From Blastopirellula sediminis (lineage in GTDB: Bacteria; Planctomycetota; Planctomycetia; Pirellulales; Pirellulaceae), in contig NZ_JAJKFT010000002.1 of assembly GCF_020966755.1 (NCBI RefSeq), positions 1 to 64,000 of the forward strand: a stretch of 64,000 nucleotides of DNA, read 5' to 3'. Shown here piece after piece: positions 3,976 to 22,379 of this stretch; within the stretch, counting starts at the first letter, position 1, and every line of letters starts with the position of its first letter. Below the pieces are notes generated by a model. The model had not been told where the DNA came from. It saw only the letters and a program-made list of their open reading frames with translations, and ran no database searches. The translations under genes were made by a program, and so were the position numbers.

Positions 3976-4584
3976 ATGACTGAACCGCACGCGACGGAAG
4001 AGCTCTTGGCCCGCGCCAAAAGCGGCGACAAAGCTGCTCAGACGCTGATCGTCAGCCGGTACATGGACAAGCTGATGTCCGCAGCTTCTCGGAATCTCGC
4101 GACCTATATCCAGAGGCACATGGAGCCGGAGGATGTGGTTCAATCGACCTTTCGCACCTTTTTTCGCCGACATCAAGCTGGCAAGCTTGACGGGTATAAC
4201 TTCAATAGAGAGGAAAAGGACGGCTTCCTTGGATTTCTCATTTTGATCCTGATTCGGAAATGCCAGCGGGCTGCGCGAGAAGCGGCCAAACTTCCCAAGA
4301 ATCCGGCAGGGGGCAATGGATCAGAAGACGAATTGTCGAGTCAGGATTTGGACGCCATTTCTAAAGAACCGGTGCCGCAAGAGATCGCCGCGTTTAGCGA
4401 TCTGCTGATGGCGCTCACCGAGCGGCTGAAGAATCCGCGGGATCAAGCCATACTTGAGCTCAGAATGGCGGAAGTGCCGATCCGCGAGATTAGCGAGCAC
4501 GAAGACGTTCAATGCTCGGAAAGAATGGTTTTTATCGCGCTGAACCGGATCAAGGAGCAGCTGCGAAAAATCAGCGAAGATTAA
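3976..4584 (+). CDS. ECF-type RNA polymerase sigma factor (cassette 1)
   Basis: A 202-residue sigma-70 family protein that directs RNA polymerase to a small regulon. Region 2 is visible around residues 15-95, with the DVVQSTFRTFFRRHQ helix used in core binding and -10 recognition, and an IRKCQR segment. Region 4 (about 135-200) ends in a helix-turn-helix, EISEHEDVQCSERMVFIALNRIKEQ. The acidic, non-conserved linker is typical of this group. AGGAGG at 3961-3966, 9 bases ahead of the ATG, is an excellent ribosome site. It aligns along its full length with the sigma factor at 15820. No anti-sigma factor gene lies beside it. ECF factors in planctomycetes are often found next to Ser/Thr kinases, as here, which suggests phosphorylation-based control (inference). 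Confidence 0.93.
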   Translation: MTEPHATEELLARAKSGDKAAQTLIVSRYMDKLMSAASRNLATYIQRHMEPEDVVQSTFRTFFRRHQAGKLDGYNFNREEKDGFLGFLILILIRKCQRAAREAAKLPKNPAGGNGSEDELSSQDLDAISKEPVPQEIAAFSDLLMALTERLKNPRDQAILELRMAEVPIREISEHEDVQCSERMVFIALNRIKEQLRKISED

Positions 4585-4626
4585 ACCCCCATCTTGCGAT
4601 AGTTTCGCTTGGGAGCGTTACAGCAT

Positions 4627-4660
4627 CGCCTCGCCGCCCCGAGGCGGATCGCATCGGGGC
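4627..4660. terminator. Overlapping hairpins between convergent genes
   Basis: Two mutually exclusive hairpins, CGCCTCG/CGAGGCG (4627-4646) and GCCCCGA/TCGGGGC (4636-4660), lie between the sigma gene end at 4584 and the stop of the convergent gene at 4679. There is no clear T-run. Confidence 0.5.
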
Positions 4661-4678
4661 GAGGGACTTCGCAGCTTA

Positions 4679-4972
4679 CTAGCAGGCGGCTTTCGTGCAC
4701 TCGATTTTGACCACAAAGCCCGCCGCCTTGAAGTAGGCCGCCTTCGCTTTCGCAGCCGAGATAGAGTCAAAGCATTCGTCGCATTTCACCCACGGCCCAT
4801 CGTCGCAAACGGCGAAATAGACGTAATAGTGATGACAGCTGTCTTCGATAACCCGCGACTGGGCGACGCTCGAACGTCCGCATTCGGCGGCGGGCGCCAG
4901 AGAGCCGGTCAACATGGCGGCGACCAAGGCAAGGGCGGCGGGAACGTGACGAAAGGAAGTGGCGGTGAACAT
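4679..4972 (-). CDS. Small secreted HHYYV/Cys protein (cassette 1)
   Basis: A 97-residue exported protein. The ATG at 4972 is preceded by GGAG at a good spacing, so the longer frame from 5011 is not used. The leader runs through RHVPAALALVAAMLTGSLAPAAE. The mature part contains CHHYYVYFAVCDDGPWVKCDECF, then an Ala/Lys-rich helix, and ends with a beta strand and two cysteines (VVKIECTKAAC). A paralog at 20700 shares the HHYxVxF, W, DxCF, helix and IxC order. About 50 mature residues plus paired cysteines suggest a small disulfide-stabilised alpha/beta domain. I do not recognise a named family. It is convergent with the ECF sigma gene and upstream of the LRR kinase's stop. Confidence 0.8.
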   Translation of the reverse strand: MFTATSFRHVPAALALVAAMLTGSLAPAAECGRSSVAQSRVIEDSCHHYYVYFAVCDDGPWVKCDECFDSISAAKAKAAYFKAAGFVVKIECTKAAC

Positions 4973-5192
4973 AGCAAAGTCTCCGATTGCAGGTTGACGC
5001 CGACCGAGCACTGGCGGTCAGTCGCGTTCGTATTGGGCGAAGGTCCGACGCCTTCGCTATACATGAATGCGATTCAAGCGGCTTAACTGCACGGAAATCT
5101 AGAGATAATTTTCTGCCCCGATGTCGCGTTGCTTATTTCGCCGATAAACCGCCCCCAGAATCGGTATCGCAGAATGGAATGTTAGATCGACA

Positions 5193-8100
5193 CTACTTAG
5201 GCGTTGGGGCGGACGCTGCACTGGAAACTTCCCTCTCCGGCAGGCGCCACGGAGTATCCATCAACGATTCATGAAAGACGACGCACAACGGAAGCGCCGC
5301 CTGAAGTTTGGCGGCGCCTTCGGCGGTAACTTTGGTGCGGTTGATGTCGAGGATTCGCAAGCTCTTTAGTTTTGCGAGATGGGGAATAGCGCCATCCGTG
5401 ATACTTGTGCCTAGCAATTCCAGGCGGTTGAGCTTCTGTAAGGATTTCAAGTGCTCGATCCCACCGTCCGTCACGTTCGGGCTACGGGTCAATATAAGCT
5501 GTCGCAGGTTGACGGCCTTGGCAACCTGCTCCAATCCAAGTTCGCCAAGATGCGTATCACTAAACTGCAGGTCGCGCAGATACGGAAAATCTGCCAGGAC
5601 GAACAGGCCGGCGTCGTCCAGGGATTTACATCTCGACAAAATTAACGTTTCCATTTGGCGGAATCCCCGGAGATGTTCCAATCCCTTCGCCGTCAAATCG
5701 GAACCATCAAGACGCAAACTGATAACGCCTTGCAGGGAAGCGATGCGTTCGACGCCGGCGTCCGCATTTTGCAGATTCGGAAATTCGATCGCCGCTACGT
5801 ATTTCAGCGCCGACAGGTTTTGCATCCCGGTTGCGATATCAGGATCGCTCGCATCGGCAAATACGATTCCCGTTAGCGCGAAATCCGTGGCGCCTAGCTG
5901 GTCGATGTTGCTCTTGTCGGGAGCAAACGGCGACCAATAGGAAAATGCCCTCCCACCTTGCTCGGCTACCCAGCGAATCGCATGAAGTTCACCGCCTTGC
6001 GTTGGCAAGTCTGGATGAAGCACGACGCATTCCGGCAATAGCTTCTGTAGTTCGGCGGCGCCGGTGCTGGTAATTCTGGTTTCACGAAGTTCTAGTACGC
6101 GGAGATTTTTCAGCGTCCCTAGATCCGCCACAACAGAATCGTTCAAGTTGTTGCGCGACAGCAGTAGAACCTGGAGATTCTCGGCGTTTGCCAGTTTCTT
6201 GACCCCCGCGATCGTCACCCATGGGCACCCAGAAACGGAAAGCTGTCGCAGCGAAGCGGAAGTCGCGAGCCGTGCGACCCCGACGTCGGTAATCTTTGTG
6301 TTGTGAACGTCGAGATCGCGCAGAGATTCCATCTTTGCGAATTGCGTGCAGGAGTCGTCCGAGAGGTTGGTGTAAGCGGCATGAATCGCGTAGGGGCCTT
6401 CGCTTGTCGACAAGGATAAGATGTCCGTGTCCGATACGTTCGAATAGTCGAACCAGACATGAGCGTAGGGCAAGTTTCGCTTTAGTCCCGCAACGCCTCC
6501 TGACGGGAGACGTGTTTTGTGCAGTTGCAGTTCTTGTAACGACGCGACCTCTTCCAATTTTCTCCAGTCCGCCGCCACATCCAATCGGCCATCCATAAAT
6601 GCGATCAATTGCACGGCCAGGCGACCTTTCGGTAAATCTCCAACGTCCTTGACTACGTGACGACTAGTGCTGGCAAATACTTCAACTACGCCTCCTCGAT
6701 CGAGGATCATCTCTGCCAAGCTGTGCTGTGGGTCCTGCATCACAAAAGCCGACTCCGATTTCAACTCCGGCATCCGCCACGGCGTATTCTCCAGCGATTC
6801 GTGAAATACGACGCATAGTGGCAATGCGGCCTGAAGTTTGGCGGCGCCTTCCGCAGTGATCTTCGTACGACTGACGTTGAGGGTCCTTAGGCCATTTAGT
6901 TGGATTAGATGTGGAATTGCGGCGTCGCTAATTGGCGTGTAGACGAGTCCTAAATGATTCAATCCGGCGAGCGGAATCAGGTGCGGCATACCATCGTCGG
7001 ATACCTTGTAGCAATGGGACAGGTTTAACTCTCGCAAGTTTTTCGCTTGCCCGATTGATTCAAGACCGGCATTGGTGACTTGCGTTCCCGAGAGAGTTAG
7101 CAGACGCAGTTGAGGATACTCCGCGACGACGGAAACCGCTCGGTCGTCGATCTGCTTACACTGACCCAATTTTAAGATTTCTAGTTGTTTAAGGTCCTTT
7201 AAAAGTAGCATTCCATCCGCAGTTACGTCCGATTCATTTAGGAATAGTTGCGTTAAACTGTCAAGCGAAGAAATATGGGCTAGGCCCTCGTCGGCGTTTG
7301 TTAGTTTGTGCAATTCCAAAGCGAGGAGGCATTTCAAATCGGTTAAATTGCGAAGTCCGGTCGCGATGGCAGGCGAACTGGCGTCCGAGAACAGGATCCC
7401 ATTAAACGCGAAGTCATATTCCGGAATCGCATCCACATTGTTCTTGTCAGGAATGAACGGCGACCAATGTGAAACGATTCTGGCCCCGTTCTCAATGGCC
7501 CATCGCGCCGCTTGAATTTCGCACTTTTCTGTTGGCACGGCAGGGTGCAGGACGATGCAGTTTGGCATCAAGCGTTGTAGTTCCAACGCTCCGGCACTTG
7601 AAATCTGCGTATCTCGAACATCAAGAACGCGGAGATTCGTAAGGGACGCAAGATCGGCGATCGCCGAGTCATCCAACTTGTTGTGCGTCAGAAAAAGGAC
7701 TTCAAGATTCCGGGCCTGGTTCAACTTTCGAATCCCCGGTCCTGTCACCTTGCAACTGGCGATATTCAACCCTCGGATCGTCGGTGAATTGGCGAGATAC
7801 GTCAAACCCACATCCGTAATCTCCGTATGGGTAAGATCAAGTTCCCTCAGTTGCGACATCTGTCCCAAATGACGACAAGCGGCGTCCGATACTGTCGTAA
7901 ACGGCAATTGAATAGCCAATGGGCCCCAGTCAGTAGAGAGCGACTTCACCCCATGGTCCGACACTTGAGTTCGACCGAGAGAAAGTGTTAGGTGGGGTAG
8001 ATGACGATCGAACGCTGCGAGCCCCTGGTCCCCTAGCCGCGTGTTGTAAGCAAACAGCCCGGCCATTCCAAAGCTGTTTTTCAACAAGTCGAAATCGGGA

Positions 8101-10091
8101 TCGGTTATGTCCGGATTGTTTTCGCACCACAGAGTTCCTACGGCAAACCTAGTCGGCGGCAGTTGTTCGAGCTTCGATACCTTGCCCCCGTCGGTAAAAG
8201 AGACGATGCCCACGACACCGCCTCGATTTATCGCCATTTCTGCGATCCGGCGATGTGGATCCTCCTGCATCGCAATCGCCGCCGGCTGTTGTTCCGCTTT
8301 GGTTGGCGAAGACGCCGAAGGGGCCGGCGTCGTATTTTCCGCTTTTGCCACCTCTACAGGGAGCGGCTCCAGTCGCACGCGGATCGTTTCGTTGGCTCCT
8401 CCCTTCACGCGAAACTCCTTCGTGAATGTCTCAAACCCTCCTTTGACCACCTTCAGCGTATGGGTTTTTTCATCGGCCGTTACCTGAAGTGGTTCTTGCC
8501 GCTCGCCGGTCTTGATGGTGATTCGCTTTTGGCCATCGACCGTGACCTCGGCGCCGGCGATTTCAGGCTGGTCGATTTCGAGAATAATCGTCCCGGCTGG
8601 AGTTTCGACCTTCAGGAAGATCCCGGCCGCCCAGGCGCCGCCGAAACCAGCCAAGCCGAGAAGGCATGCTGCGATGAGGCCCCAGTGCCCGCGGCGGGGC
8701 GGCAGAGTCGCAGATGGCGCTGGGGGGGGCAATATTCGGCTGGTTTCGATCGTGGTTGCGGTATCGTTGAAGGCTTGTAGGTCAGAGTCGAGTTGCGGGG
8801 GGCGTGCCGCGACATCCTCGCTCGGCAGCGTCAATTGATTCAACGCATCGATCAATTCAGTCATACTCTGAAACCGATCCTCCGGCTTCTTCGCTACCAT
8901 GCGGCGAAAAACGAGATCGAGTTCGACGGGGACGTTGTCGCTCTCGAGGGAGGGGATCGCGTTTTCGCGGTGGGCGAGGATCGTTTTGACCATGGTATTC
9001 TCGACAAACAAAGGGCGTGCGGTCACCAGGTAGTAGAGAGTGCAGCCGAGCGAATAGATGTCGCTGCGAGCGTCGGCAAGACGGGTGTCCAAGGCTTGCT
9101 CTGGCGCAAGAAAAGCCACCGTTCCCATAACTGCACCCGGTTGGGTGAGGTCGAGCGACGATGTTTGTTCGGGATGCGGCTCCGTCGATTCGATCCGGGC
9201 CAGTCCCATATCGAGAATCTTCACGGTCCCGCTTTTGTCGAGCAGCAGATTGGCCGGCTTAATATCTCGGTGAATGACGCCAAGCTTGTGGGCATGCGCG
9301 AGACCGGCGGCCGCCTGGCCGATGTAATTGACTGCTTTAGCCGGGGAGAGTGGTCCGCTTGTGCGAACCAAATTGGCCAGGTCGAGCCCGTCTACATAGG
9401 ACATCGCCAGAAAAAGAGTTCCCTTCGATTCACGCGCATCGAATGCGGTGACAATATTGGGATGTTCCAGTTTTGCGGCAGCTTTCACTTCGCGTTGAAA
9501 ACGTTTGGTCTTTTCCTCTGAATCAACAATCGCCTTGGGAAGGATCTTGAGAGCCACGACGCGATCCATCTGCTGATGCAGGGCCTTGTAAACTTCGCCC
9601 ATGCCGCCGGCGCCAATTTTGTCGAGGATGACGTATCGATCTAAAACCAGCGGCAGATCACGACCGTCGAGTAGGACCGTCGCCTGAAAATGGGTCAGTT
9701 TCGTGCCGTTTACCAACTGGTTTGCAAAGGAGACCGCGTCGGATGCTGGGTAATCACGGCGGTAGAGATCGAGATGGCTCTCGTCTACCAATTCGGAATC
9801 GACCAGGCTTTGGCAGAACTGATCGAGCGTAAGCGCGGAGGAGGGGAGTTGAACTTGGTTCGCTTGACCATCGACAGCAGCGGCAGCAGGCTGTTGCAGC
9901 GCGTCGCCGGAGCGATTTTCATCAGTGTCAACGAACGACTGGAGAGCGTCGACGTTCTTGATTAACTGCGAGAGCTCGCCAAGTAGCTCCGGGAATTCGG
10001 CGCAAAGTTGTTCGGCCGAAAGCTGTTCGCCTCGTTCCAGGGCTTCGCCCCAACGCACCAGCATTTCGTAGAGGCGACCATCGTCACTCAT
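5193..10091 (-). CDS. Transmembrane Ser/Thr kinase with extracytoplasmic LRR array
   Basis: A 1,632-residue receptor-like kinase. ATG 10091 (MSDDGRLYEML) is chosen because AGG lies 8 bases ahead, while the longer frame from 10211 begins with an unlikely Trp-rich leader. Order: N-terminal helical preamble (1-110); Hanks kinase (about 150-415) with the glycine loop GAGGMGEVY, ALKIL lysine, HRDIKPAN catalytic loop, DMG in place of DFG, and PEQA; a proline-rich linker; one membrane segment (about 467-493); a PEGA-like beta domain; then leucine-rich repeats to the end. The LRR part is two 510-residue copies. The kinase would be cytoplasmic and the LRRs outside the membrane, so it probably senses an envelope ligand. 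All key catalytic residues are present. Confidence 0.93.
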   Translation of the reverse strand: MSDDGRLYEMLVRWGEALERGEQLSAEQLCAEFPELLGELSQLIKNVDALQSFVDTDENRSGDALQQPAAAAVDGQANQVQLPSSALTLDQFCQSLVDSELVDESHLDLYRRDYPASDAVSFANQLVNGTKLTHFQATVLLDGRDLPLVLDRYVILDKIGAGGMGEVYKALHQQMDRVVALKILPKAIVDSEEKTKRFQREVKAAAKLEHPNIVTAFDARESKGTLFLAMSYVDGLDLANLVRTSGPLSPAKAVNYIGQAAAGLAHAHKLGVIHRDIKPANLLLDKSGTVKILDMGLARIESTEPHPEQTSSLDLTQPGAVMGTVAFLAPEQALDTRLADARSDIYSLGCTLYYLVTARPLFVENTMVKTILAHRENAIPSLESDNVPVELDLVFRRMVAKKPEDRFQSMTELIDALNQLTLPSEDVAARPPQLDSDLQAFNDTATTIETSRILPPPAPSATLPPRRGHWGLIAACLLGLAGFGGAWAAGIFLKVETPAGTIILEIDQPEIAGAEVTVDGQKRITIKTGERQEPLQVTADEKTHTLKVVKGGFETFTKEFRVKGGANETIRVRLEPLPVEVAKAENTTPAPSASSPTKAEQQPAAIAMQEDPHRRIAEMAINRGGVVGIVSFTDGGKVSKLEQLPPTRFAVGTLWCENNPDITDPDFDLLKNSFGMAGLFAYNTRLGDQGLAAFDRHLPHLTLSLGRTQVSDHGVKSLSTDWGPLAIQLPFTTVSDAACRHLGQMSQLRELDLTHTEITDVGLTYLANSPTIRGLNIASCKVTGPGIRKLNQARNLEVLFLTHNKLDDSAIADLASLTNLRVLDVRDTQISSAGALELQRLMPNCIVLHPAVPTEKCEIQAARWAIENGARIVSHWSPFIPDKNNVDAIPEYDFAFNGILFSDASSPAIATGLRNLTDLKCLLALELHKLTNADEGLAHISSLDSLTQLFLNESDVTADGMLLLKDLKQLEILKLGQCKQIDDRAVSVVAEYPQLRLLTLSGTQVTNAGLESIGQAKNLRELNLSHCYKVSDDGMPHLIPLAGLNHLGLVYTPISDAAIPHLIQLNGLRTLNVSRTKITAEGAAKLQAALPLCVVFHESLENTPWRMPELKSESAFVMQDPQHSLAEMILDRGGVVEVFASTSRHVVKDVGDLPKGRLAVQLIAFMDGRLDVAADWRKLEEVASLQELQLHKTRLPSGGVAGLKRNLPYAHVWFDYSNVSDTDILSLSTSEGPYAIHAAYTNLSDDSCTQFAKMESLRDLDVHNTKITDVGVARLATSASLRQLSVSGCPWVTIAGVKKLANAENLQVLLLSRNNLNDSVVADLGTLKNLRVLELRETRITSTGAAELQKLLPECVVLHPDLPTQGGELHAIRWVAEQGGRAFSYWSPFAPDKSNIDQLGATDFALTGIVFADASDPDIATGMQNLSALKYVAAIEFPNLQNADAGVERIASLQGVISLRLDGSDLTAKGLEHLRGFRQMETLILSRCKSLDDAGLFVLADFPYLRDLQFSDTHLGELGLEQVAKAVNLRQLILTRSPNVTDGGIEHLKSLQKLNRLELLGTSITDGAIPHLAKLKSLRILDINRTKVTAEGAAKLQAALPLCVVFHESLMDTPWRLPEREVSSAASAPTPK
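5211..6740 (-). repeat. LRR block copy 2 of a 1,530-bp internal duplication
   Basis: This block starts with a MQDPQHSLAEMILDRGGVV segment and ends with HESLMDTPWRLPE. Three landmarks (start, middle, end) are each exactly 1,530 bases from their partner in copy 1, so the copies have no net length change. Confidence 0.9.
6741..8270 (-). repeat. LRR block copy 1 of a 1,530-bp internal duplication
   Basis: This block starts with MQEDPHRRIAEMAINRGGVV and ends with HESLENTPWRMPE. It is the partner of 5211-6740. The sequences have diverged substantially in both DNA and protein. Confidence 0.9.
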
Positions 10092-10445
10092 CAGAGTTAC
10101 CTGAGGGCCTCGGAACGAAATCACGAGTCGTCTGACCGACGCTGGCGTCCATGAACTCGAGATGTAGGTTTGTGTCGTCCACCAAGATATCGCCTGCCAA
10201 TTCGACAGCACAAATGGTCAATTCAAACACATGACCATCTTATCAAGGGACTCTACTGGATTACTAGCTTCTTCCCCTCCTTTTTAATGGCCAGGGCAGG
10301 GCTAAAAGGGCCGTCATGGACGTGGCGGGAAGGAAGAGGAGCGGCGGCAATCTATTGTAAAATTCCCGCCAGTCCTCTGGGGTTAATCGGGCATTCTTTC
10401 ATCTTCTCTTCCTTCTTGAGCCTCTCTCTCTTCATCCAGCCAATT

Positions 10446-10464: not shown

Positions 10465-10479
10465 GAGCGAAGTGGGCAC

Positions 10480-10495: not shown

Positions 10496-10501
10496 TGTCG
10501 G

Positions 10502-13500
10502 TCATTCGTCGTCCCGGTAGGGCATCCCTTGCTGGTACAGTTCCAATCGCAAGCGAAACCCATCTAAATCCTCGTCCTGGCTCTTCGTCGCCAATTCGAC
10601 CGCTGTGGTTTGCGTCGCGACGGCATTCTCAAAGTCTCCCAGTTCGGCATAGGTCGCGGCAAGTGTGCCAGTTAAATACGCGTCCGGTTCAGTGCTGAGA
10701 GAGGTCGCTAGTTTTGCATTCGCGACTGCCTTGGCTCCATCCCGAAATTGCGGATCCGGACAGGTTGCTAGGAACCAAGCGAGTGTATTGAAGTTCCAAG
10801 CAGACTCAGGGTCGATCTCAATGCATTTGGTGTAATCGGCGATCGCTTGGTCGTAGTCTTTCTTGTCGCAATTGACGTCACCTCGATAAAGGTAGGCCAG
10901 GGCCTCTTGAGGGTCGATCTCGATCGCCTTGTTGATGTCGGCGATCGCTTTCGCATAGTCCTTCTTCATGCGCCAAGCGTCCCCGCGTTCTCGGTAGGCT
11001 GCCGCGTCCTTGGGGTCGATTTCAATGCACTTGGTGTAATCGGCGATCGCCTGGTCGTAGTCAGCCTTGTTATACCAGGCGTCCCCGCGACTTTGGTAAG
11101 CTACGGTGTCCTGAGGATCGATCTCAATGCACTTGGTGTAATCGGCGATCGCTTGGTCGTAGTCTTTCTTGTCGTAATTGACGTTACCTCGATATCGGTA
11201 GGACCGGGCCTCTTGAGGGTCGATCTCGATCGCCTTGTTGATGTCGGCGATCGCTTTCGCAAAGTCCTGTTTCATGCGCCAAGCGTCCCCGCGTTCTCGG
11301 TAGGCTGCCGCGTCCTTGGGGTCGATTTCAATGCACTTGGTGTAATCGGCGATCGCCTGGTCGTAGTCAGCCCTGTTATACCAGGCGTCCCCGCGACTTT
11401 GGTAAGCTACGGTGTCCTGAGGATCGATCTCAATGCACTTGGTGTAATCGGCGATCGCTTGGTCGTAGTCTTTCTTGTCGTAATTGACGTTACCTCGATA
11501 TCGGTAGGACCGGGCCTCTTGAGGGTCGATCTCGATCGCCTTGTTGATGTCGGCGATCGCTTTCGCAAAGTCGTCTTTCATGCCCCAAGCGTCCCCGCGT
11601 TCTCGGTAGGCTGCCGCGTCCTTGGGGTCGATTCCAATGCACTTGGAGTAATCGGCGATCGCCTGGTCGTAGTCAGCCTTGTTATACCAGGCGTCACCGC
11701 GATTTCGGTAAGCTACGGCGTCCTTGGGGTCGATTTCAATGCACTTGGTGTAATCGGCGATCGCCTGGTCGTAGTCTTTCTTGTCGTAATTGACGTTACC
11801 TCGATATCGGTAGGACCGGGCCTCTTGAGGGTCGATCTCGATCGCCTTGTTGATGTCGGCGATCGCTTTCGCAAAGTCGTCTTTCATGCGCCAAGCGTCC
11901 CCGCGTTCTCGGTAGGCTGCCGCGTCCTTGGGGTCGATTTCAATGCACTTGGTGTAATCGGCGATCGCTTGGTCATATTCCTTCTTGGAATGCCAGCAGG
12001 CACCGAGGTAGCTGTAAGCGATGGCATCCAGAGGGTCGATTTCGACTGCTTTTTTAAGATCCGATATCGCTTGATCGTCGTCGCTCTGGAAATACCAGCA
12101 GCGCCCGCGTCGCCGATAGGTCTGGGCGTCGAGTGGCGCGATCTCAAGGGCCTTGGTATAGTCCGAGATCGCTTGATCGAAATTGTCCTGGAAATAATAA
12201 GCGTCTCCACGCACTCGAAACGCGTATGCGCTTTGGGGATCGATCGCAATCGCTTTCGTGAGATCTGCGATCATCCGGGATTCATCGCCGACGAGTTTCC
12301 AGGCATTGGCGCGGTCGAGATACGCAACGTAAGCCGAGTCGGAAATGGCAGTGACAGCTTGACAATAGTCGGCGTCACGATTCTCCACTTCGCCAAGTTT
12401 CTCCCAGGATGAACCGCACAGAACAAACGCTGCCGCAAAGCCTGGATCATGTTCAATGGCATGAGAGAAATCGCTGATGGCCCTCTCAAAGTCGGCTTGG
12501 CGATAGAAAGCTTTGCCTCGATCGTAGTAGAGCGAGTGGTACTCCGGATCAAGTCGAATCGCATTATCGAATTCAACTATCGCTTTGGAATAGTCGCCAA
12601 TCGAAACGAAATATTCCGCGGCGCGAAGATGAACCAGGCTGCAGTCGGGGGCGGCTTGGATGGCGGCCTCGAATTCCGCGATCTCGGTTGCACCCCTTAG
12701 CGAGTTCTCCAGCGTCTGTTCCTGAGGCTCTTGGATTCGAATCGTCCGATGTAGCCCGGCCGAATTGTCTTGTTCAATTCGCTTCCAGTAGCAACCCTCT
12801 TGTCGGAACTCATGGGACAGCACGAATGGGGTCTCATCACAGGGAATCGTGAGGTCAATGATCATCGATCGGCCATCGCTCAATTCGACAAGACAAGCCA
12901 TGTGACCGGAGGCGCCGAAAGACATTTCCTCGGCCGTTCGGTAGATCTGAATGAAACGAATAGGCAAGCCGACGGAGTGTCCCAACACGGAAATAACCTC
13001 TGAGTATCCACGGCAACTTGCCAAGCCTTGGAGGGTGACTTCGTCTAGATGGCCGCAGTTGTAGCCATAGTTGGGAATCATTGACTTGATAAGATCCTTT
13101 AGTTGGTCGACGATTTCGGACTCGGCCAACGCGGCGACTGATTCTGAGATTTCGTCTTTATGCATCAGGTCGCGAATGCCATCAAGTTCCGTCTTTAGAT
13201 GTGCTAAATCCTTCGCATTGCCTCGGAACATTGCAGTGAAGTCGTCGGCGACGTCGCCCGAGTAGCCTAACGCGATTACCTCACGACGCATGGCGTCGGC
13301 AAGCGGGCGAAAATCCTGGGCGACTTCCGGAACGAGGGTGTCGTAGGCGTCAAAGTATCTGACGGCTCCCGCGTGGTCTCCCAAGCGATAGCGACGATTG
13401 CCTCGATCTCGAATTAAATAGGCCTTGTCGGGATCAAGTTCAGTACACTTGGCGTAATCGGCTAGTGCCCGGTCAACATCGTTCTTGCTTTCCCACGCAT

Positions 13501-14449: not shown

Positions 14450-14894
14450 TCGAAACGCCTCGCTTGATAAAGGAAGTCTGGTATTCCCGACTGGCGACTG
14501 CCGTGGCTATGTGTGGATGCCAATTGGGGAGTTCGACCTGCAACGGAATCCGCGGTTTTTTTAGAGAATTCGGATCCGACGTCGATTGTTCGTCTTGGGA
14601 TGGGCCGCCGGGCGGCCTTTTCCGAGGAAAAAGAGATGCTGCGGAGCTAGGGTCTTAGGACGCTACGTTACGCGAAATCGCGTGGGAGAACTGTCCGAAT
14701 GGTTGGAAATGAAATGGTGGGACCCCGTTACGGTCCTCACAAAGTCCGTACACTGGAATTCACGCACGCGTGGTTTCCTCCTCTCGGACACAGTCGGAAA
14801 ATCGCATACGGACGTGTACAGTTGGACGTCTACTCCGCGGCTAGCAAATGGCCATTTACCCAAATTCGCGGAATTTGCGTGGGATTCGATTGCG
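14450..14894. other. Intergenic region, no gene seen
   Basis: This is the upstream region of the TPR gene and the downstream region of the DUF3592-like gene (both - strand). It contains a compact G+C inverted repeat, GGCCGCCGGGCGGCC, followed by TTTT at 14603-14621, a possible + strand terminator. No open frame here has support. Confidence 0.5.
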
Positions 14895-15572
14895 TTAAGC
14901 TAGGTAATCGCCTTCCGATTCCATCCAGTCAAACTTGTGCTCCCAGCGAACTGCCACGCGGTAGATCACGATACACGAGCAGAATCCCAATAGTGACCAT
15001 AGGAGGCGGCGAACGCCTTCACCGGCGACTCGGTTCCAATTTGGATTGAAGCCGAAGTATTGAATTCTAAGAGTAGCGTCAACGATCGCGTGATTCGTTG
15101 AATCGTGGGAAATATCACTCGCGCGAGAGTGCGCTCCGACCTCGATCGTGTATTCGTTTCCATTCACGGAAAAGCTGTAGGTATCGATTCGTTCAACCTC
15201 AGATGAACCGGTTCTGACTTGAGCGACGCGTTTAGCTTCTGAATGCGTTGGATCGACCAAGGACGCGTCCCGGTTGCTCGACGAAACGAGTCTTGCCGTC
15301 GCAGTCGGTGCGAATAGCCAGACTGTTTCACTGCAGATTCCATACGCGGAACAGAAGACGGCGGCGGCCAAAAAACTACATGCGCCTTTGACGGCGAGCG
15401 TAAGAAATTCTTTAAAAATCTCTAGGCAGACCACGTATTGCCAGCTTTCATGGACCGTAACATCTGGGGCCGCTTTCACTGAAGCGTCATGCGCCATAGC
15501 GTTCTTTGCCATAGCGGCGTCGCTCTTGGTATACGCCTTAGAAGCAAGGACAAAGAACGGCAGGATAAACAT
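14895..15572 (-). CDS. DUF3592-like two-pass membrane protein (cassette 1)
   Basis: A 225-residue protein with two long hydrophobic segments (about 50-80 and 187-207). Between them is a domain of about 100 residues containing WLFAPTATARLV, IDTYSFSVNGNEYTIEVG and LRIQYFGFNPNWNRV. The order Y-F-V-G-Y followed by a QY..NPN turn before the second membrane helix is how DUF3592 proteins look. The domain between the helices is probably outside the cytoplasmic membrane. No ribosome site is obvious for ATG 15572; an in-frame ATG at 15512 is the alternative. The paralog at 21307 shares WLFxPTATA and the Y.FSV.G..Y block. Function unknown. It is the upstream-most - strand gene of cassette 1. Confidence 0.75.
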   Translation of the reverse strand: MFILPFFVLASKAYTKSDAAMAKNAMAHDASVKAAPDVTVHESWQYVVCLEIFKEFLTLAVKGACSFLAAAVFCSAYGICSETVWLFAPTATARLVSSSNRDASLVDPTHSEAKRVAQVRTGSSEVERIDTYSFSVNGNEYTIEVGAHSRASDISHDSTNHAIVDATLRIQYFGFNPNWNRVAGEGVRRLLWSLLGFCSCIVIYRVAVRWEHKFDWMESEGDYLA

Positions 15573-15720
15573 GTGGGATTTGGGCGACTAATGGTGAACA
15601 TAAACGTGGTAGTAAGGTGCGTCCGACTGGCGTTTTGTCAGGAACTAAGACCAATCGGGGGTATCGACTGAAAGCAGGGCGGCGACGGCCCCAGAGAGTA
15701 CATGCCAGTTGGCCGTTTTG

Positions 15721-15750
15721 GACTGCAATGAATTCTTGAAATATTTAGAT
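15721..15750. promoter_or_regulatory. Recurrent upstream motif, site 3
   Basis: CTGCAATGAATTCTTGAAAT lies 70-100 bases ahead of the ECF sigma gene at 15820, the same arrangement as site 2. The 15573-15819 gap otherwise holds nothing recognised. Confidence 0.5.
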
Positions 15751-15819: not shown

Positions 15820-16434
15820 ATGACCGATTCGTGGGACATAACGGAAACGTTGGCGCGCGCCAGGAACGGAGATCGGGAGGCCCAGGAGTTCCTAGCGATG
15901 CGTTATCGCGACCATCTAATGCGAAAGGCGTCGCTTAAGCTCGCGCCCTACGTAAGAAAGCATCTGGATCCAGACGACGTGGTCCAGTCTACGCTGCGGA
16001 CGTTCTTTCGGCGTCATCAGGAGGGGAAGTTTGACAACTTCGATTTCAACCGCGAGGAGCAGAAGGACGGACTCCTGCGCTTGCTCTGTACGATTCTGAT
16101 TCGAAAGTGCCAGCGAGTCTCACGAGTAGGACGTCGCGAAGAAGAGGCTCCTGCCTTATTGGGCGATGACGGAGAGTTGTTTCCAAACGACATCCTCGAA
16201 GGCATTTCCAAGGAACCGAGCCCCAAAGAGGTCGCTGAGTTAGAGGAATTGGTTCGGGTTGTCAGCGAGCGGCTGATTCATCCGAGAGATCGAAAGATCC
16301 TGGAACTTCGAATAGCCGGATATTCGATTCGTGAAATCTGTGAGCATGAAGAGGTGAAATGTTCGGAGAGTATGGTCTTTATCGCGCTACGCCGAATTAA
16401 GGAACAGATGCGTCGATATTTTGAGACGAAATGA
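15820..16434 (+). CDS. ECF-type RNA polymerase sigma factor (cassette 2)
   Basis: A 204-residue sigma factor, paralogous to the one at 3976 over its full length. Region 2 carries LDPDDVVQSTLRTFFRRHQ and LIRKCQR; region 4 ends with REICEHEEVKCSESMVFIALRRIKEQ. AGGGGG at 15809-15814, 5 bases ahead of ATG 15820, supports the start. The linker between regions is acidic and diverged from the first copy, while the recognition helix is close to it (KCSESMVFIALRRIKEQ against QCSERMVFIALNRIKEQ), so the two may recognise similar -35 sequences. The gene is convergent with the kinase at 16451, with only 16 bases between stops. No anti-sigma gene is adjacent, so kinase-mediated control is a reasonable inference. 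Confidence 0.93.
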   Translation: MTDSWDITETLARARNGDREAQEFLAMRYRDHLMRKASLKLAPYVRKHLDPDDVVQSTLRTFFRRHQEGKFDNFDFNREEQKDGLLRLLCTILIRKCQRVSRVGRREEEAPALLGDDGELFPNDILEGISKEPSPKEVAELEELVRVVSERLIHPRDRKILELRIAGYSIREICEHEEVKCSESMVFIALRRIKEQMRRYFETK

Positions 16435-16450
16435 TCGATATTCTGTGGCG

Positions 16451-19400
16451 TCAATCAGCGGATGGTCCCTCGGCGTCTCGCAGCGGCAACTGTAACTGAT
16501 CTAATAGGGGCTCCATAGTTGGATCCGAAACGTCCAGATAGCTGCAGCCTATCGCTCTCTGGCGGCAATCTTCGGAGAGGTTGAGGAAGCGATAGTAGTC
16601 GCTGAGCGCCTCCTTGGTGGACGAGTTCTGCGCAACTTTGCTTGCGCAAAGAGCATAGCAACATGCAGCGGCATATAGATCTTCTTTGCTCGACGGAGAT
16701 CTCCAAGAGAGAATCATGGCGGCAAGTTCCGTTTCGGTAAGGCTGTCGCGAAACGTCAACAAGTCGGGGATCTCATTCGGCGGCTGTGCGAGTATCGCAT
16801 CTAGATCCCCGTATAGAGCGACGTTCAACTGGATCATTTTTTTACTGCGAGAGGAATGCATAGTCAGCTCGTCTAGGAGGTCGCTTACACGGTCGCCGGC
16901 AAAGCCGTTATGTTGCGCATCCTGCAGCATTTTTCTAGCGGCCTCAAACTGGGAAATTGCCTCATCGTGAAGGCCAAATCTTTGGTTAAAGATGGCGAGC
17001 GATATTCGAGTATTAAAGAGATTTTGTCGCGTCTCGCTTTCATTCTCTTGTTCCGCCTTATTGGCGGCCTCGTCAGCGACCAGTACTTCCGCTTCCAGGC
17101 AATTCTTAAACATCAGGAAGTCGGACTCATCTAGTTCATACTGCGCGTCCTGAGTGCTACGAACCGCTTCTAAGAATGCGTTGATATGCTTCTTCGCATC
17201 GGAGAAATTGCGATCGTTCATTTCCAAAACGATTAGCGAATGCTGAATCTCCATCCGTTTCTTCAGGTAGAAGCGGCTGGTTTCTTCGTCCGCGATTACC
17301 AGAGGGGTCGTGATCAGTTCTTCCGCCTGGTTCAAAAGGCGACGAGCCTCGGCTATATCATGGCGTGCGGATACAAGATTCCCTAGGTTGTTCGTGGCGC
17401 CCGCTTGGCGGGCGATCCAAATTGGTTGATCTGGCGCCATTGCTGCGATTTGAGCGAAAATTGCGACTGATGTTTCCGCAAATTCTATAGCCTGCGCCAG
17501 GTTTGAATTTGCGTCATCCAAAGGAAGTTGTGAGTAACAGATCACGATACGTTCGCAGATTTGCGAGCGTGTTTGCAGGTTCTCAATGACGGGAGCTTCG
17601 CCAGGCGTCGATTGTTGACTGGCCTGAAAAGCGGCTTGGTAATGGTTAAGAGCTTCTGAAATATTCCCGTTTGCGAAATCGGGTTCCGCAAGGCGCCAGT
17701 GAGCGAAAATTAAACCTGCTTGCGCTTCTTTTTTCTCCGGCCACCTTTGAAGAATCAGGTTGCTTGTCGTCAGAATCTGCTCCAGCAAATTCAAATGTTC
17801 TTGGGGATGTTCGTCGTGTACCAATTCCGCAAGATCGCACCGCAGTTCTAACTCGCGAAGGAGAACGGTAAGGTTAAAACTCCCATATAACGCATCGAGG
17901 GATTCGAAGCGGTCATATTCTTGGGAAGCGTGGCGATAGTAGTCAATCGCCTCTGGGATATCGCCAATCCGTTTGCGCATATTGCCAATGTGCACTTGAA
18001 TCTCCGCGTACTCGGCCGACCGAGACGATTTCTGGGGATCGGCATTTCGAACGTATTCAGCAATCTCAATACAATCAAGTTCCAGTTCTTTAACTAGCTC
18101 ACGGTCCTGGCCACCCCAGGCACACTGCAGATAGTTAAGCCCGGCGTACTTGCAGATATCCCACGCTTCACCGTTCCGAGGATTGCGTTCGACCAGCGTG
18201 CAGGCGATCCGAAAACCTTGTTCAAGCTCTCCCTGGGAATCTGCCAGGGAATTACCTCTCTTGAACATTGCGAGCCCTAACATCGTGTGAGCGCGAGACG
18301 CCAGAAGCTGCGCCGGAATCGACGAATTGTCAGCCGCGGAGGCTTTTTCTGCGATTTGGAGGCAATTCTGAAAGGCGAGTTCCGCCGAATCAAGATCGCC
18401 CAAGTGCAGTTGCATTTCGCCCATACCATGAATCGCTTCCGCCAACATAAACAGATGGTTCGAGTCTGCACGATTCGTCAGTAAGTCGTGCGTTTGGCGA
18501 TAATACGTGAGGGCTTCGGAAAGGTCGCCCGCGTTTTCGCAAGCGGTTGCCTGTTGGTAAATTGCACTTGCCAAGTTGTGCCGATCCGCGTCGTTGTGCG
18601 GTCGCGAATTGGCAACGCGTTGGAATTCCGCAATCGCCTGTTGGTTAGACTCGCTTGCCGCTGGAGCGTTTCCCTGCGATTCTTTGAGGAGGCCTAGTTT
18701 CTTGAAGATTTCAGCGCGTTCCCGTATCAGATCCAGATTGTCCGGGTCCGCCTTCAGGCTGGTTTCGACCGCGCGCATTGCTGCCAAATAGAGCGGTTCG
18801 GCTTTGTCATCCGCTTGGATGGCGACGTAGGAGTCTGCGATCGCCAAATAAGCCGTGGCAGTCAATCGCGTCACCTCGTGGTCGTCGATGAGCGATTTTT
18901 GCAGGTCTTCGAGTCGTAAGACGCTAGCGTTCAGCAGGCGTTCGCTAACGGCATGCAATTCTGGAACGTTCTCCACGGCGGAACTAACCTCTTCTATCAG
19001 CATCCGAAGGCTACCGATCGCAAGTTGTCCCCTTTGTTCAGCAAGTTGCGCGTTCGCTCGCGCCGTGTTTGCATTCCGGGTCGCCTCGGCGGCGAATGCC
19101 AGCGATACGATCGTACCGATGGCGAAAGTCGCGGCAATGGCTGAGGTAAAGCCTGCAACCATACGATTCCGTTTGCACCACTTCCAGGCGCGACGAAATA
19201 CGCCCGGCGGACGTCGGAGGATACTCTTTCCGGTAAGAAATCGTTCTATTTCGTCAGCGAACTCCTGGGCGCTCTGGTACCGATCTTGAACTTGCTTCGA
19301 CAACGCACCTAAGCAGATTGTCTCAAGATCGGCCGGAATCTTGTGATTGACCTCCCGAAGACGACGCGGTTCGATTGCATCATCGCTGATTTGAATAATG

Positions 19401-20581
19401 ACGTCATTTGCGCTGTAACCACGAAACGGCCGTTCGCCGCACAGCAATTCATAAAGAATGACGCCCATGCTAAAGACGTCGCTTCGTCCATCGGCATGAC
19501 GAGAATCCCCACGAGCAAGTTCCGGGCTCATATAGGCGGGCGACCCCATCTGATCACGACTGAGGGTGAGTAATACCTCACTGTTTACGAGCTTGGCGAG
19601 TCCAAAGTCCAAGATACGGGGTCCATCGTCGGTTGATATCATGATGTTGGCCGGCTTCAGATCGCGATGCACAACGCCGGCCGCGTGTGCGGCCGCCATG
19701 GCTCTAGCGACGTTCAAAACGGTTCTGGCTGACTCGGCGAATGTCAATTGTTTCGCCGAATCGCCATGTTCGGCGGTAAACTCGTGAAGGTTTACGCCTT
19801 CCACGAATTCCGAGACGATATAGGGGATGTCTCCGACTGAACCTACTTCGTATACCGGAACGATGCCTGGATGTCGCAATTTCGCGGCGCTAACCGCCTC
19901 GCGTCGAAAGCGATCGTCGTCCGAAGCGGGAAGGAAGTGGTGATGAGGAATCTTGATGGCGACTACCCGTTTCAATTGCGTGTCAAACGCTTGATAGACG
20001 GTTCCAAAGGCGCCTTTTCCGACTTCCGTCAAGAGTTGAAACTTGCCAAACGTGTGATTAGTGAGTTCGGTGGGGTTAACGACATCGAGTTCCTGCTCGC
20101 ACATCGGGCACCGAAGTCGGTCTTCATCTGGTCGATTCGCTTCATCGAAGACCTGATTGCAACGCGAACAGCGTCTTGGCGATGCAGCAAGCGTTTCCAA
20201 TTCCCCGCGAATTCGCGCAGCGTAAGCCGGAAAGCGTTCGCAGAATTCTTGCGGATTGACCAACGTGTTACGTCGCTGCCGGTACTTGTACTCGGATAGG
20301 AGCAACTGGATGACCGTTTCATCGTTCGCTGGAAGGTTGGGATACCGTTCGAAATAGTGTTCGACGCGAATATCTTCTCCGGCGAGTACTCGAAACTCCA
20401 AATCGGAATCGAGCACGTCGGCCAGCAATTGGACGTTCGAGGCTAACTCCGGCGGAATATAGTCCTCGATGGCTGGCAACAGTCCGGCCTGCCAGGATTC
20501 GTTCAACGCTTCTAAAGCGTCGTCCCGAAGTTGCTCCAGGAGCGGCCAGGAGTCGTTTGGCGCAGAAGGGTCCGCGTTCAT
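16451..20581 (-). CDS. Transmembrane Ser/Thr kinase with extracytoplasmic TPR region
   Basis: A 1,376-residue kinase. ATG 20581 (MNADPSAPN) is preferred over a TTG four codons earlier; neither has a good ribosome site. Order: a helical preamble with LLPAIEDYIPP; a zinc-ribbon-like element (about 135-161) with CSRC and CPMC; Hanks kinase (about 177-452) with GKGAFGTVY, AIKIP lysine, HRDLKPAN, DFGLAK and SPELARGD; one membrane segment (about 474-492); then about 880 residues of helical TPR-like repeats with no further membrane segment. The kinase would face the cytoplasm and the TPR part the periplasm. All catalytic residues are intact. It is convergent with the ECF sigma gene and on the same strand as the small secreted gene 118 bases upstream. 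Confidence 0.93.
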   Translation of the reverse strand: MNADPSAPNDSWPLLEQLRDDALEALNESWQAGLLPAIEDYIPPELASNVQLLADVLDSDLEFRVLAGEDIRVEHYFERYPNLPANDETVIQLLLSEYKYRQRRNTLVNPQEFCERFPAYAARIRGELETLAASPRRCSRCNQVFDEANRPDEDRLRCPMCEQELDVVNPTELTNHTFGKFQLLTEVGKGAFGTVYQAFDTQLKRVVAIKIPHHHFLPASDDDRFRREAVSAAKLRHPGIVPVYEVGSVGDIPYIVSEFVEGVNLHEFTAEHGDSAKQLTFAESARTVLNVARAMAAAHAAGVVHRDLKPANIMISTDDGPRILDFGLAKLVNSEVLLTLSRDQMGSPAYMSPELARGDSRHADGRSDVFSMGVILYELLCGERPFRGYSANDVIIQISDDAIEPRRLREVNHKIPADLETICLGALSKQVQDRYQSAQEFADEIERFLTGKSILRRPPGVFRRAWKWCKRNRMVAGFTSAIAATFAIGTIVSLAFAAEATRNANTARANAQLAEQRGQLAIGSLRMLIEEVSSAVENVPELHAVSERLLNASVLRLEDLQKSLIDDHEVTRLTATAYLAIADSYVAIQADDKAEPLYLAAMRAVETSLKADPDNLDLIRERAEIFKKLGLLKESQGNAPAASESNQQAIAEFQRVANSRPHNDADRHNLASAIYQQATACENAGDLSEALTYYRQTHDLLTNRADSNHLFMLAEAIHGMGEMQLHLGDLDSAELAFQNCLQIAEKASAADNSSIPAQLLASRAHTMLGLAMFKRGNSLADSQGELEQGFRIACTLVERNPRNGEAWDICKYAGLNYLQCAWGGQDRELVKELELDCIEIAEYVRNADPQKSSRSAEYAEIQVHIGNMRKRIGDIPEAIDYYRHASQEYDRFESLDALYGSFNLTVLLRELELRCDLAELVHDEHPQEHLNLLEQILTTSNLILQRWPEKKEAQAGLIFAHWRLAEPDFANGNISEALNHYQAAFQASQQSTPGEAPVIENLQTRSQICERIVICYSQLPLDDANSNLAQAIEFAETSVAIFAQIAAMAPDQPIWIARQAGATNNLGNLVSARHDIAEARRLLNQAEELITTPLVIADEETSRFYLKKRMEIQHSLIVLEMNDRNFSDAKKHINAFLEAVRSTQDAQYELDESDFLMFKNCLEAEVLVADEAANKAEQENESETRQNLFNTRISLAIFNQRFGLHDEAISQFEAARKMLQDAQHNGFAGDRVSDLLDELTMHSSRSKKMIQLNVALYGDLDAILAQPPNEIPDLLTFRDSLTETELAAMILSWRSPSSKEDLYAAACCYALCASKVAQNSSTKEALSDYYRFLNLSEDCRQRAIGCSYLDVSDPTMEPLLDQLQLPLRDAEGPSAD

Positions 20582-20655
20582 AGGGATAGCCAATCATTTA
20601 ACGTCGCGAATGCTTTGCTAGATTACGCAGGTTGTAGCCTGGATTCGCCGCACCA

Positions 20656-20683
20656 GACTCCGAGGCTTCTACGCCTCGAAGTC
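20656..20683. terminator. Hairpin between small secreted gene and kinase gene
   Basis: An 11-bp stem with one mismatch (GACTCCGAGGC/GCCTCGAAGTC) lies 17 bases past the stop of the - strand gene at 20700. It has no T-run and could reduce read-through into the kinase gene. Confidence 0.4.
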
Positions 20684-20699
20684 TCAGGTTTGCTGGCTA

Positions 20700-20972
20700 C
20701 TACTCGCAAACAATCCTCGCCGGGTACCCCCGGTCCTCGAATTGGCGTTTCACCTTCAGGGCCTCACATCGCGTTTCAAAGCAGTCGTCATACTCATGCC
20801 ATTCGCCACTGCACCAGAATTGGACGAAATAGTGGTGGCTGTACGCCACCGTTTCGGTTTGGGCCGCCAGGGCTTGATGGGACGGTTCAGCCGCGGACGA
20901 CATCGAGCCCGTCAACTGCGAGGCGATCAGGGCGATGGCGGCGAACTTCAGGCAGCTCGTGAAATTGATCAT
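20700..20972 (-). CDS. Small secreted HHYFV/Cys protein (cassette 2)
   Basis: A 90-residue exported protein, paralogous to 4679-4972. ATG 20972 has GGAG 8 bases ahead, within the same CCGGAGAT-type leader context as the first copy; the longer frame from 21008 is not used. The leader is MINFTSCLKFAAIALIASQL with cleavage likely after SSAAE. The mature part contains YSHHYFVQFWCSGEWHEYDDCF, a helix ALKVKRQF and an end strand ARIVC. It shares with the first copy the HHYxV, W, DxCF and terminal cysteine. Three cysteines remain of the larger set there. It lies 118 bases upstream of the TPR kinase start on the same strand and may be co-expressed with it. Confidence 0.8.
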   Translation of the reverse strand: MINFTSCLKFAAIALIASQLTGSMSSAAEPSHQALAAQTETVAYSHHYFVQFWCSGEWHEYDDCFETRCEALKVKRQFEDRGYPARIVCE

Positions 20973-21085
20973 CTTTCGATCTCCGGATGACGTTTTGACG
21001 CGACCCAAGCCGGGAAGGGCAGTCGCGGCGGTTATTCGTTACGGCACGTCGCCGTCACTAGTAACAGATGCATTTCGGGGCCCGC

Positions 21086-21115
21086 GAGCTGTAACGAATT
21101 CTTGAAAAAAGTCGG
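21086..21115. promoter_or_regulatory. Recurrent upstream motif, site 4
   Basis: GAGCTGTAACGAATTCTTGA followed by AAAAAG lies about 115-140 bases upstream of the small secreted gene start at 20972. The preceding 60 bases, with ATGCATTTCGGGGCC, also match the region around 22700. The 20973-21306 gap otherwise holds no gene. Confidence 0.45.
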
Positions 21116-21306
21116 GAAGCACTCCGGGCGCTCCACCCAGATCGGTCGAGAAGCGAGAATAAAGTCTCGCTAAAGTCGCCCGGTTGAGCTTTTCCAGATG
21201 CCAGGCTATCCGCATGTTCGTGATATGGCGCAAACCGCCGGAAAGCGATTTTGGATCAAGCTACGCATTCCTGGATTTCAGTCGCGTATCGCATCTTTTG
21301 TCGCAT

Positions 21307-22179
21307 TCAAATATGTTGGCGCTTTCGCTTCGCTTGAAGAATTTCCCAGCCGCAATACGCGAGCACTGGAAGTGCGACGCAGGCAAAAATCCCAGCAAAT
21401 GACATGAAGATGCTCCGTCGCCCCATGCTCTCACGGTTTATTTGAGGAAAGTTTTTTACATATTGAACCGTCACGGGCGGATAGTCGTCCGTGGGGATAT
21501 TCGATCTGTCCAGTTGGGTGGAGTTGTTTGAAAAACTAGGAGGTACAGATCGTCCCTCGATGAATGATGTCGAAGAGAAAAAGTACTGGTGTCCGTCCAC
21601 TGAAAATGCGTATTTCACATTGCGATCGATGCCCCATTTGTACAAGGGATGAGTCGTTCTGACTTTAGGTGGAGACGCCATCATCCTTAGAGAGTTTTGT
21701 TCGATTATGGAGTGTATTTGTGCTGTGGCCGTAGGCTTGAATAGCCAAGTCAGTTCCGTGAAGTACACGGAAATGCATACGTAAAATAGTGTAAGCCACA
21801 ATGACGAGAGGAATAGTAAAACGATTGTGGGAAGGTCAGGCAACGGACTCCCATGCAGATCACCGTACGAGACTACTGGAGTTTTTGGCGATTTTCTCGG
21901 TTTGATTTTCGGCTGCTCCGAGTTGACGTTATTGCACCGGCAATTACCTTTTGAGTCGACGATAAAATCGGCTTCCCAATCTCTCGGTTTGATTTTTGGC
22001 TGCTCCGAGTTGACATCATTGCACCGGCAATTGCCTTTTGAGTCGACGATGAAATCGGCTTTCCAATTCATGTGTATCTTCTCGAAAAAGGACAGCGAGG
22101 CCAAAATTCCAATTCCACTCGTGCGTACGTACTTGTTTAGTCTGCCGGTTTCGTCGTTGATATTGAGTTCGTAATACAT
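21307..22179 (-). CDS. DUF3592-like two-pass membrane protein with duplicated N-terminal motif (cassette 2)
   Basis: A 290-residue protein. The N-terminal part carries a 29-residue tandem duplication with a CRC motif (ADFIVDSKGNCRCN twice). Hydrophobic segments lie at about 119-147 and 257-281. Between them are TWLFKPTATAQI, VKYAFSVDGHQYFFS and VTVQYVKNFPQINRE, the same order as in the protein at 14895 and consistent with the DUF3592 family. ATG 22179 overlaps the upstream gene by 43 bases; ATG 22071, with GAGAAG nearby, is a plausible later start and would keep almost all of the duplication. The CRC repeats would sit on the cytoplasmic side in a simple two-pass model (inference). Confidence 0.72.
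   Translation of the reverse strand: MYYELNINDETGRLNKYVRTSGIGILASLSFFEKIHMNWKADFIVDSKGNCRCNDVNSEQPKIKPRDWEADFIVDSKGNCRCNNVNSEQPKIKPRKSPKTPVVSYGDLHGSPLPDLPTIVLLFLSSLWLTLFYVCISVYFTELTWLFKPTATAQIHSIIEQNSLRMMASPPKVRTTHPLYKWGIDRNVKYAFSVDGHQYFFSSTSFIEGRSVPPSFSNNSTQLDRSNIPTDDYPPVTVQYVKNFPQINRESMGRRSIFMSFAGIFACVALPVLAYCGWEILQAKRKRQHI
21895..22068 (-). repeat. 87-bp tandem duplication in coding sequence
   Basis: Two copies (21895-21981 and 21982-22068) with very few differences encode a 29-residue unit with GNCRC. The length is a multiple of three, so the frame is kept. Confidence 0.92.
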
Positions 22180-22379
22180 CTAGCGATGACAAAGCCAGTG
22201 GCGACTCCGAAAACGGACGAAATTACCAAGATTTGAGTTTGCGAATTCAATCTGTTGATGGCTTCCTTTTCGTTTCGAGGAGGTTTCTCAGCGACGTTAA
22301 TGCCCAAGACAACGGCGAGCGCGAGCGGTGCGAGAAGAAAACCGGCCAACATCGTGAAAGAAAAAAGCAGAATGCGCAT
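22137..22379 (-). CDS. Small two-pass membrane protein, 80 residues
   Basis: ATG 22379 has AGGAG 9 bases ahead. The product has a hydrophobic start (MRILLFSFTMLAGFLLAPLA), a polar middle with KPPRNEKEAINRLNSQTQ, and a second hydrophobic helix (ILVISSVFGVATGFVIA). It overlaps the start of the DUF3592-like gene by 43 bases, which suggests translational coupling. No family recognised. A role as a partner of the downstream membrane protein is inferred from position only. Confidence 0.65.
   Translation of the reverse strand: MRILLFSFTMLAGFLLAPLALAVVLGINVAEKPPRNEKEAINRLNSQTQILVISSVFGVATGFVIARCITNSISTTKPAD

Follow-up and report, generated by a model that had tools for sequence, protein, structure and literature searches.

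What holds together the genes of two neighboring groups, each with an extracytoplasmic function (ECF) sigma factor, a small secreted protein, a Ser/Thr kinase, and a membrane protein, at the start of a contig of Blastopirellula sediminis? The window analyzed here comprises 64,000 nucleotides (nt), positions 1 to 64,000 of contig NZ_JAJKFT010000002.1 (assembly GCF_020966755.1, 7.05 Mb in 10 contigs); the contig starts at window base 1, and the two groups are called set 1 and set 2 (Table 1). A first-pass annotation had described them as two paralogous four-gene cassettes, that is, as a conserved signaling unit whose sensor had been exchanged. The eight genes that it named lie where it placed them, and the sigma factors (53 to 55% identical), the small proteins (35% over 104 amino acids [aa], E value of 1e-15), and the membrane proteins (28% over 148 aa, E value of 3e-7) are paralogous pairs; however, the kinases are not a pair. 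The idea that these genes belong together survives as a candidate regulatory system defined by a shared upstream element, and not as a conserved four-gene unit. This element is confined, among the sequences searched, to the cluster in which both sets lie, and, judged from the sequence, sigma 1, sigma 2, or both probably drive a private, lineage-specific local regulon of about 20 kb.

The element is bipartite: GAWTTC-N2-T(G/T/A)CAG, with variation, is followed by a spacer and then by GCAT, at seven sites between positions 2665 and 22750. At six of these sites, TAG follows 7 to 8 nt after GCAT. The spacer is 17 nt at six sites and 16 nt at the small protein 1 site; the two conserved blocks, upstream of start codons, are therefore separated by a distance within the range of ECF-type promoters (15 to 18 nt). 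All seven sites are on the coding strand, 75 to 190 nt upstream of start codons. Of the genes that they precede, all on the minus strand, six are intact and encode secreted or membrane proteins, and the seventh is a truncated small-protein gene. With the genes at 1966 to 2553 and 3123 to 3677 and the truncated gene at 22529 to 22615, which have the same upstream element, the set is larger than the eight genes first named. The sigma 1 and sigma 2 genes are each divergent from the adjoining element-bearing gene. Other genes trail element-bearing ones, as judged by position only: kinase 1 begins 290 to 410 nt past the gene for a secreted tetratricopeptide repeat (TPR) protein, kinase 2 about 107 nt past small 2, and an 80-aa open reading frame (ORF) and membrane 2 follow the truncated small 3 gene, itself with an element. 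Weaker plus-strand matches were seen at 10372 (score of 16.3) and 21286 (12.8), in gaps of the same cluster.

With a sequence-only model of the element (R1), the seven sites scored 38 to 46 bits, and the next positions in the 7.05-Mb genome, for which 150 of 853 first-look candidates were scored, reached 16.5, 13.5, 13.2, and 12.8 bits, which is the level of noise. A scan of 97 relatives with stricter filters gave a best score of 17.0 bits and none above. Because the seven sites had themselves built the model, the fair test is leave-one-out scoring in which the near paralogue is also left out; this was run first within the window and then against 1,696,794 background positions. Six of the seven sites beat every background position, and the site of gene 3123 was matched or beaten by 52. 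The element cores are 47 to 75% identical between pairs of sites, whereas the 40 nt upstream of them are only 15 to 35% identical, so the likeness of the sites is not a residue of duplication.

Region 4.2 is the part of a sigma factor that reads the -35 sequence, and in this region sigma 1 and sigma 2 are identical at 23 of 33 residues (70%), compared with at most 39% identity to 35 relatives. In each of the two, the region 4.2 helix is preceded by two additional residues, and MVFIAL stands at the position of TVRR in six of the eight relatives aligned. A region 4.2 that is shared and unusual is as expected if both sigma factors read one promoter that is not used by their relatives. Between regions, the linker is identical at 11 of 36 positions (31%). 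The closest sigma relative outside the window had an E value of 2.5e-26 in the 97-genome search and 3.8e-29 in the phylum sample, and the relatives from the former search were at most 36% identical to the window proteins by BLAST.

We postulate that sigma 1 and sigma 2 descended from one duplication and that both would recognize a private promoter, with GAWTTC-N2-TGCAG at about -35, a spacer of 16 to 17 nt, and GCAT at about -10, placed before the surrounding genes for secreted and membrane proteins, including the TPR protein and two PsbP-like proteins. The likeliest role of kinase 2, and perhaps also of kinase 1, would be to sense an envelope signal and to modify the activity of the sigma factors by phosphorylating them. 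Cotranscription of kinase 2 with small 2 is a possibility and would provide feedback. The confinement of the element and the sigma pair to the same 20 kb counts in favor of sigma 1 and sigma 2 as its readers.

Several observations weigh against this model. No element was found near the genes for sigma 1, sigma 2, kinase 1, kinase 2, and membrane 2 or the 80-aa ORF, where the best scores were 7.7, 5.3, 3.4, -2.1, -4.6, and 3.8, respectively, compared with 26 to 35.5 for the seven sites. There is consequently no sign of the autoregulation expected of an ECF system, and any self-activation of the sigma genes or control of the kinase genes would not be direct. Many ECF sigma factors use an AAC-type -35 sequence, and GAWTTC/TGCAG is not of that type. 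The motif was spotted by eye during the reading of upstream regions, and since only part of the first-look candidates was scored, weak sites elsewhere in the genome may have been missed. Both sigma factors keep an acidic motif (DPDD and EPED), so a phosphorylation switch of the EcfP type, discussed below, is not directly applicable. Finally, another DNA-binding protein could use the element.

This last point leads to an alternative that we regard as unlikely, although it deserves weighing: the element may be the site of another transcription regulator, an activator or repressor, with the sigma factors controlling other genes. The sigma genes do lack the element, and conserved blocks of 16 and 16 nt are long for a promoter. 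However, the spacing of the blocks and their distance from the start codons are promoter-like, no other regulator gene was recognized among the cluster proteins scanned, and the motif and the sigma pair are confined to the same place.

The kinases speak to the cassette proposed in the first-pass annotation. Pfam confirmed that their ectodomains differ: the kinase 1 domain is joined to leucine-rich repeats (LRRs) and a PEGA match, and that of kinase 2 to TPRs. The two proteins are 31% identical and can be aligned over the kinase domain only, which does not exceed the identity to most kinases of the source genome. This genome has 55 Ser/Thr kinase matches at an E value of ≤1e-15, of which the 50 strongest were compared, in a set of 87 domains made up of the 2 from the window, 48 others from the source genome, and 37 from the sigma loci of relatives. 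In this set, kinase 2 ranks 59th of 87 in likeness to kinase 1. The closest relatives of kinase 1 are LRR kinases of the source genome (75.5, 67.0, 66.8, and 64.1% identity), and a quick tree placed it within a supported (99) set of five source-genome kinases; the sigma genes found beside siblings of kinase 1 are of another type, with little BLAST likeness to sigma 1 or sigma 2 (best E value of 0.009). The best matches of kinase 2 are the kinases L073 (44%), L090 (43%), and, from the source genome, L149 (45%), and sigma loci of other genomes supplied the kinases in four of its first five other rows. Forcing kinase 1 and kinase 2 into one clade lowered the log likelihood (lnL) by 66.7, with an approximately unbiased test P value (p-AU) of 0.026, and is thus disfavored, with the caution that kinase 2 stands on a long, unsupported branch and that this value is not extreme. 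By these sequence comparisons, the two kinases are of separate origin, and an exchange of ectodomains on a single kinase does not explain them.

As to the two kinase genes themselves, the LRR ectodomain of kinase 1 contains an internal duplication (5235 to 6926, offset of 1530 nt). The source-genome kinase nearest to kinase 2 (L149) is encoded in the window, at 60742 to 62802 on the plus strand, and has a weak DUF4384 match.

A conserved four-gene cassette that was duplicated once, with exchange of the kinase ectodomain and with the small protein as ligand, is therefore very unlikely to be the explanation, even though the other three protein pairs are paralogous and the ectodomains are of LRR and TPR types. 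In addition to the kinase domains not being sisters, the kinases occupy unlike positions: in set 1, the kinase gene lies between those of the small and membrane proteins, and in set 2, between those of the sigma factor and the small protein. The gene order also differs for the small proteins, since small 1 lies between sigma 1 and kinase 1 and small 2 lies upstream of kinase 2, and the four-gene description omitted the TPR protein gene between kinase 1 and membrane 1.

Recurrence of the small protein and the membrane protein near ECF sigma-kinase pairs had been expected under the cassette idea, and its absence had been named in advance as counting against it. No such recurrence was seen in the genomes searched. 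We compared 42 sigma loci, of which 40 belong to the best sigma relatives and 2 came from the phylum search, some as short stretches where contigs end; they held no small-protein homologue (best E values of 1.9 and 1.7) and no membrane-protein homologue (0.93 and 0.5). In the searches of whole genomes, two-row profiles and peptide patterns were used, which are blind to distant relatives, so that absence means the absence of a close relative. By profile search, the small protein has two copies and one fragment in the source genome, all in the window. Among 98 genomes, 45 had a match at an E value of ≤1, and outside the source genome none was better than 0.0108. Of the 241 genomes of the family, 3 had a match at ≤0.05, one of them being the source; the other two matches were at 0.016 and 0.037, so that no close relative of the protein was found in the 240 other genomes. 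In the phylum sample, 11 of 392 genomes gave matches, the source again included, and none in the 391 others was convincing (best E value of 0.0077, on 17 of 58 positions). Matches elsewhere at E values of 0.008 to 1 were either short and within long frames or partial, and were read as chance. Scans of genome contigs, which may leave out the source genome, gave 146 matches to peptide patterns of the sigma factors (RTFFRRHQ and K[FL]D[NG][FY][DN]FN) and 109 to membrane patterns (WLF[KA]PTAT and one more), none of which was confirmed. Sigma, small, kinase, and membrane genes occurred together in no other genome searched.

More improbable still is the idea that orphan genes were gathered at the element by recombination or insertion, as in a gene-cassette array: the genes are orphans, the element-bearing ones all lie on one strand with one copy each, and hairpin-like sequence follows some copies, but RNA folding after the element gave no consistent structure (z scores of -2.05 to +1.34), the copies precede starts by a promoter-like distance, no integrase was recognized, and the spacing is fixed while the spacer sequences are mostly unrelated.

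The secreted and membrane proteins would be the products of the postulated regulon. In a model of small protein 2 made from a two-row alignment, residues 60 to 101, in the mature part of the protein, form a beta-beta-alpha-beta arrangement, in blocks with a predicted local distance difference test (pLDDT) score of 84 to 94; the rest is mostly below 50. A fold search with this model returned 117 matches at E values of ≤10 and none at 0.001 or better; matches to CwlC (SPOR domain, 2.1) and T7 Gp2 (1.2) are not evidence at such values, and the best E value in a sequence search of PDB was 0.94. The small protein may equally be a plain regulon product rather than a ligand. The membrane proteins have E..WLF.PTATA in common. 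They had been called DUF3592-like, a label without profile support: a Pfam scan found no DUF3592 match for either, and PF12158 matched at four places in the source genome at E values of ≤10, none of them in the window. The only likeness is one of layout, a transmembrane segment, a soluble part, and a second transmembrane segment in a low-confidence model (mean pLDDT of 43.7), which may correspond to the two transmembrane helices around a beta-rich part of DUF3592 proteins.

A fuller version of the regulon model, which we put forward only tentatively, would have the sigma pair evolve its own -35-reading helix alongside a private promoter code, with a closed, species-only regulon of 20 kb for secreted proteins, two unrelated receptor kinases recruited separately, and a small beta-beta-alpha-beta protein, itself a regulon product, exerting feedback on a kinase from the outside.

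Along the plus-strand coordinates, the order is secreted 1966, secreted 3123, sigma 1, small 1, kinase 1, TPR protein, membrane 1, sigma 2, kinase 2, small 2, membrane 2, the 80-aa ORF, and truncated small 3. Only sigma 1 and sigma 2 are on the plus strand.

Table 1. Genes and upstream elements of the cluster
Feature	Coordinates	Strand	Remarks
ECF sigma factor 1, 202 aa	3976..4584	+	Pfam Sigma70_ECF 24.8 bits, cutoff 21.1
ECF sigma factor 2, 204 aa	15820..16434	+	Pfam Sigma70_ECF 33.8 bits, cutoff 21.1
Small secreted protein 1, 110 aa	4679..5011	-	Signal-peptide-like start; HHYxVxF...W...CF...A...F...G...I.C core
Small secreted protein 2, 102 aa	20700..21008	-	35% to small 1
Truncated third small-protein gene	22529..22615	-	28 signal-peptide-like codons, then stop
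Membrane protein 1, 225 aa, no known family	14895..15572	-	28% to membrane protein 2
Membrane protein 2, 290 aa as ORF	21307..22179	-	Overlaps next ORF; true start may be Met near 22068
80-aa membrane ORF upstream of membrane 2	22137..22379	-	No Pfam family above cutoff
Secreted TPR protein, 1315 aa	10502..14449	-	Pfam TPR; weak transglutaminase-like stretch (Transglut_core E 0.02, below cutoff)
Secreted PsbP-like protein	1966..2553	-	PsbP E 0.0011, below cutoff; DNA paralogue of 3123-3677
Secreted PsbP-like protein, tandem paralogue of 1966-2553	3123..3677	-	DNA paralogue of 1966-2553
Kinase 1, Ser/Thr kinase with LRR ectodomain	5193..10211	-	Pkinase 174.7 bits; GTG start, ATG possible near 10091
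Kinase 2, Ser/Thr kinase with TPR part	16451..20593	-	Pkinase 162.8 bits
Element of gene 1966-2553	2665..2728	-	Motif alignment
Element of gene 3123-3677	3827..3890	-	Weakest of seven; in divergent gap before sigma 1
Element of small 1	5048..5110	-	Spacer 16
Element of TPR protein	14498..14561	-
Element of membrane 1	15683..15746	-	In divergent gap before sigma 2
Element of small 2	21049..21112	-
Element of truncated small gene	22687..22750	-	Ahead of 80-aa ORF and membrane 2

Repeats were observed within and around these genes. The TPR gene contains a tandem array (10805 to 12226) whose period is 102 nt and whose higher-order repeat is 306 nt, in copies that are 88 to 96% identical; with copies so nearly identical, the protein may change length quickly. 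The N-terminal part of membrane protein 2 has an in-frame 87-nt tandem duplication (21895 to 22067, 93% identical). Two blocks of about 122 and 129 nt, 89 to 91% identical, bracket the cluster in swapped order (1458 to 1710 and 23008 to 23287); one contains a strong terminator-like hairpin, and no copy was found in 274 kb of other source-genome DNA examined. Beyond the cluster lie adjacent genes for giant proteins of 8238 aa (23376 to 48092) and 3865 aa (48466 to 60063), 66% identical near their C termini, with further relatives at 1.31 to 1.33 Mb of contig C10 and in three of three same-genus genomes (45 to 54%).

Linkage of ECF sigma factors to kinases is already known in the phylum (PMC8999054; also PMC13147305), and the Ser/Thr protein kinase (STPK)-linked groups of Planctomycetes include ECF59, ECF61, ECF62, and ECF217 (PMC8999054). 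The window resembles these groups: each sigma factor exceeds the Sigma70_ECF cutoff and has a receptor-like Ser/Thr kinase gene close by, no anti-sigma gene was recognized here, and the acidic motif is present, in agreement with what has been reported for groups outside ECF43. It differs from them in having two sigma genes, a shared private element, and a divergent region 4.2, as well as in orientation. At 28 of the 42 sigma loci, the nearest kinase gene lies downstream of the sigma gene and shares its strand. At 3 loci it shares the strand but lies upstream, at 3 it is divergent, at another 3 it is convergent, and at the remaining 5 no kinase gene was present in the stretch. Unlike at most of these loci, each sigma gene of the window is convergent with its kinase gene, at a distance of 16 nt for sigma 2 and about 0.6 kb, with small 1 in between, for sigma 1.

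In having a sigma factor with a neighboring Hanks-type kinase, the window is also similar to the ECF43 systems EcfP-PknT of Vibrio and EcfK-PknS of Xanthomonas. In ECF43, the DAED motif has been lost and the sigma factor is switched on by phosphorylation (PMC8999054, PMC13147305), whereas the window sigma factors have EPED or DPDD; with the acidic motif kept, no phosphate would be needed to restore it, unlike in EcfP. The linker could still be phosphorylated, which has been described for EcfK (PMC13147305). In the available text of these two sources and of PMC8103513, regulatory targets are named only for ECF43 systems.

A literature search, at the level of titles and abstract openings, found no description of a planctomycete ECF promoter or regulon. 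To our knowledge, little has been reported on the targets of the numerous planctomycete ECF sigma factors that are linked to kinases. The shared element points to a compact, self-contained circuit that would control secreted proteins, in which a candidate promoter, its genes, and the sigma factors lie in one place, so that promoter, sigma factor, and kinase could be tested as one system. This locus also indicates that adjacent sigma-kinase sets can resemble a duplicated cassette even though their kinases were recruited independently.

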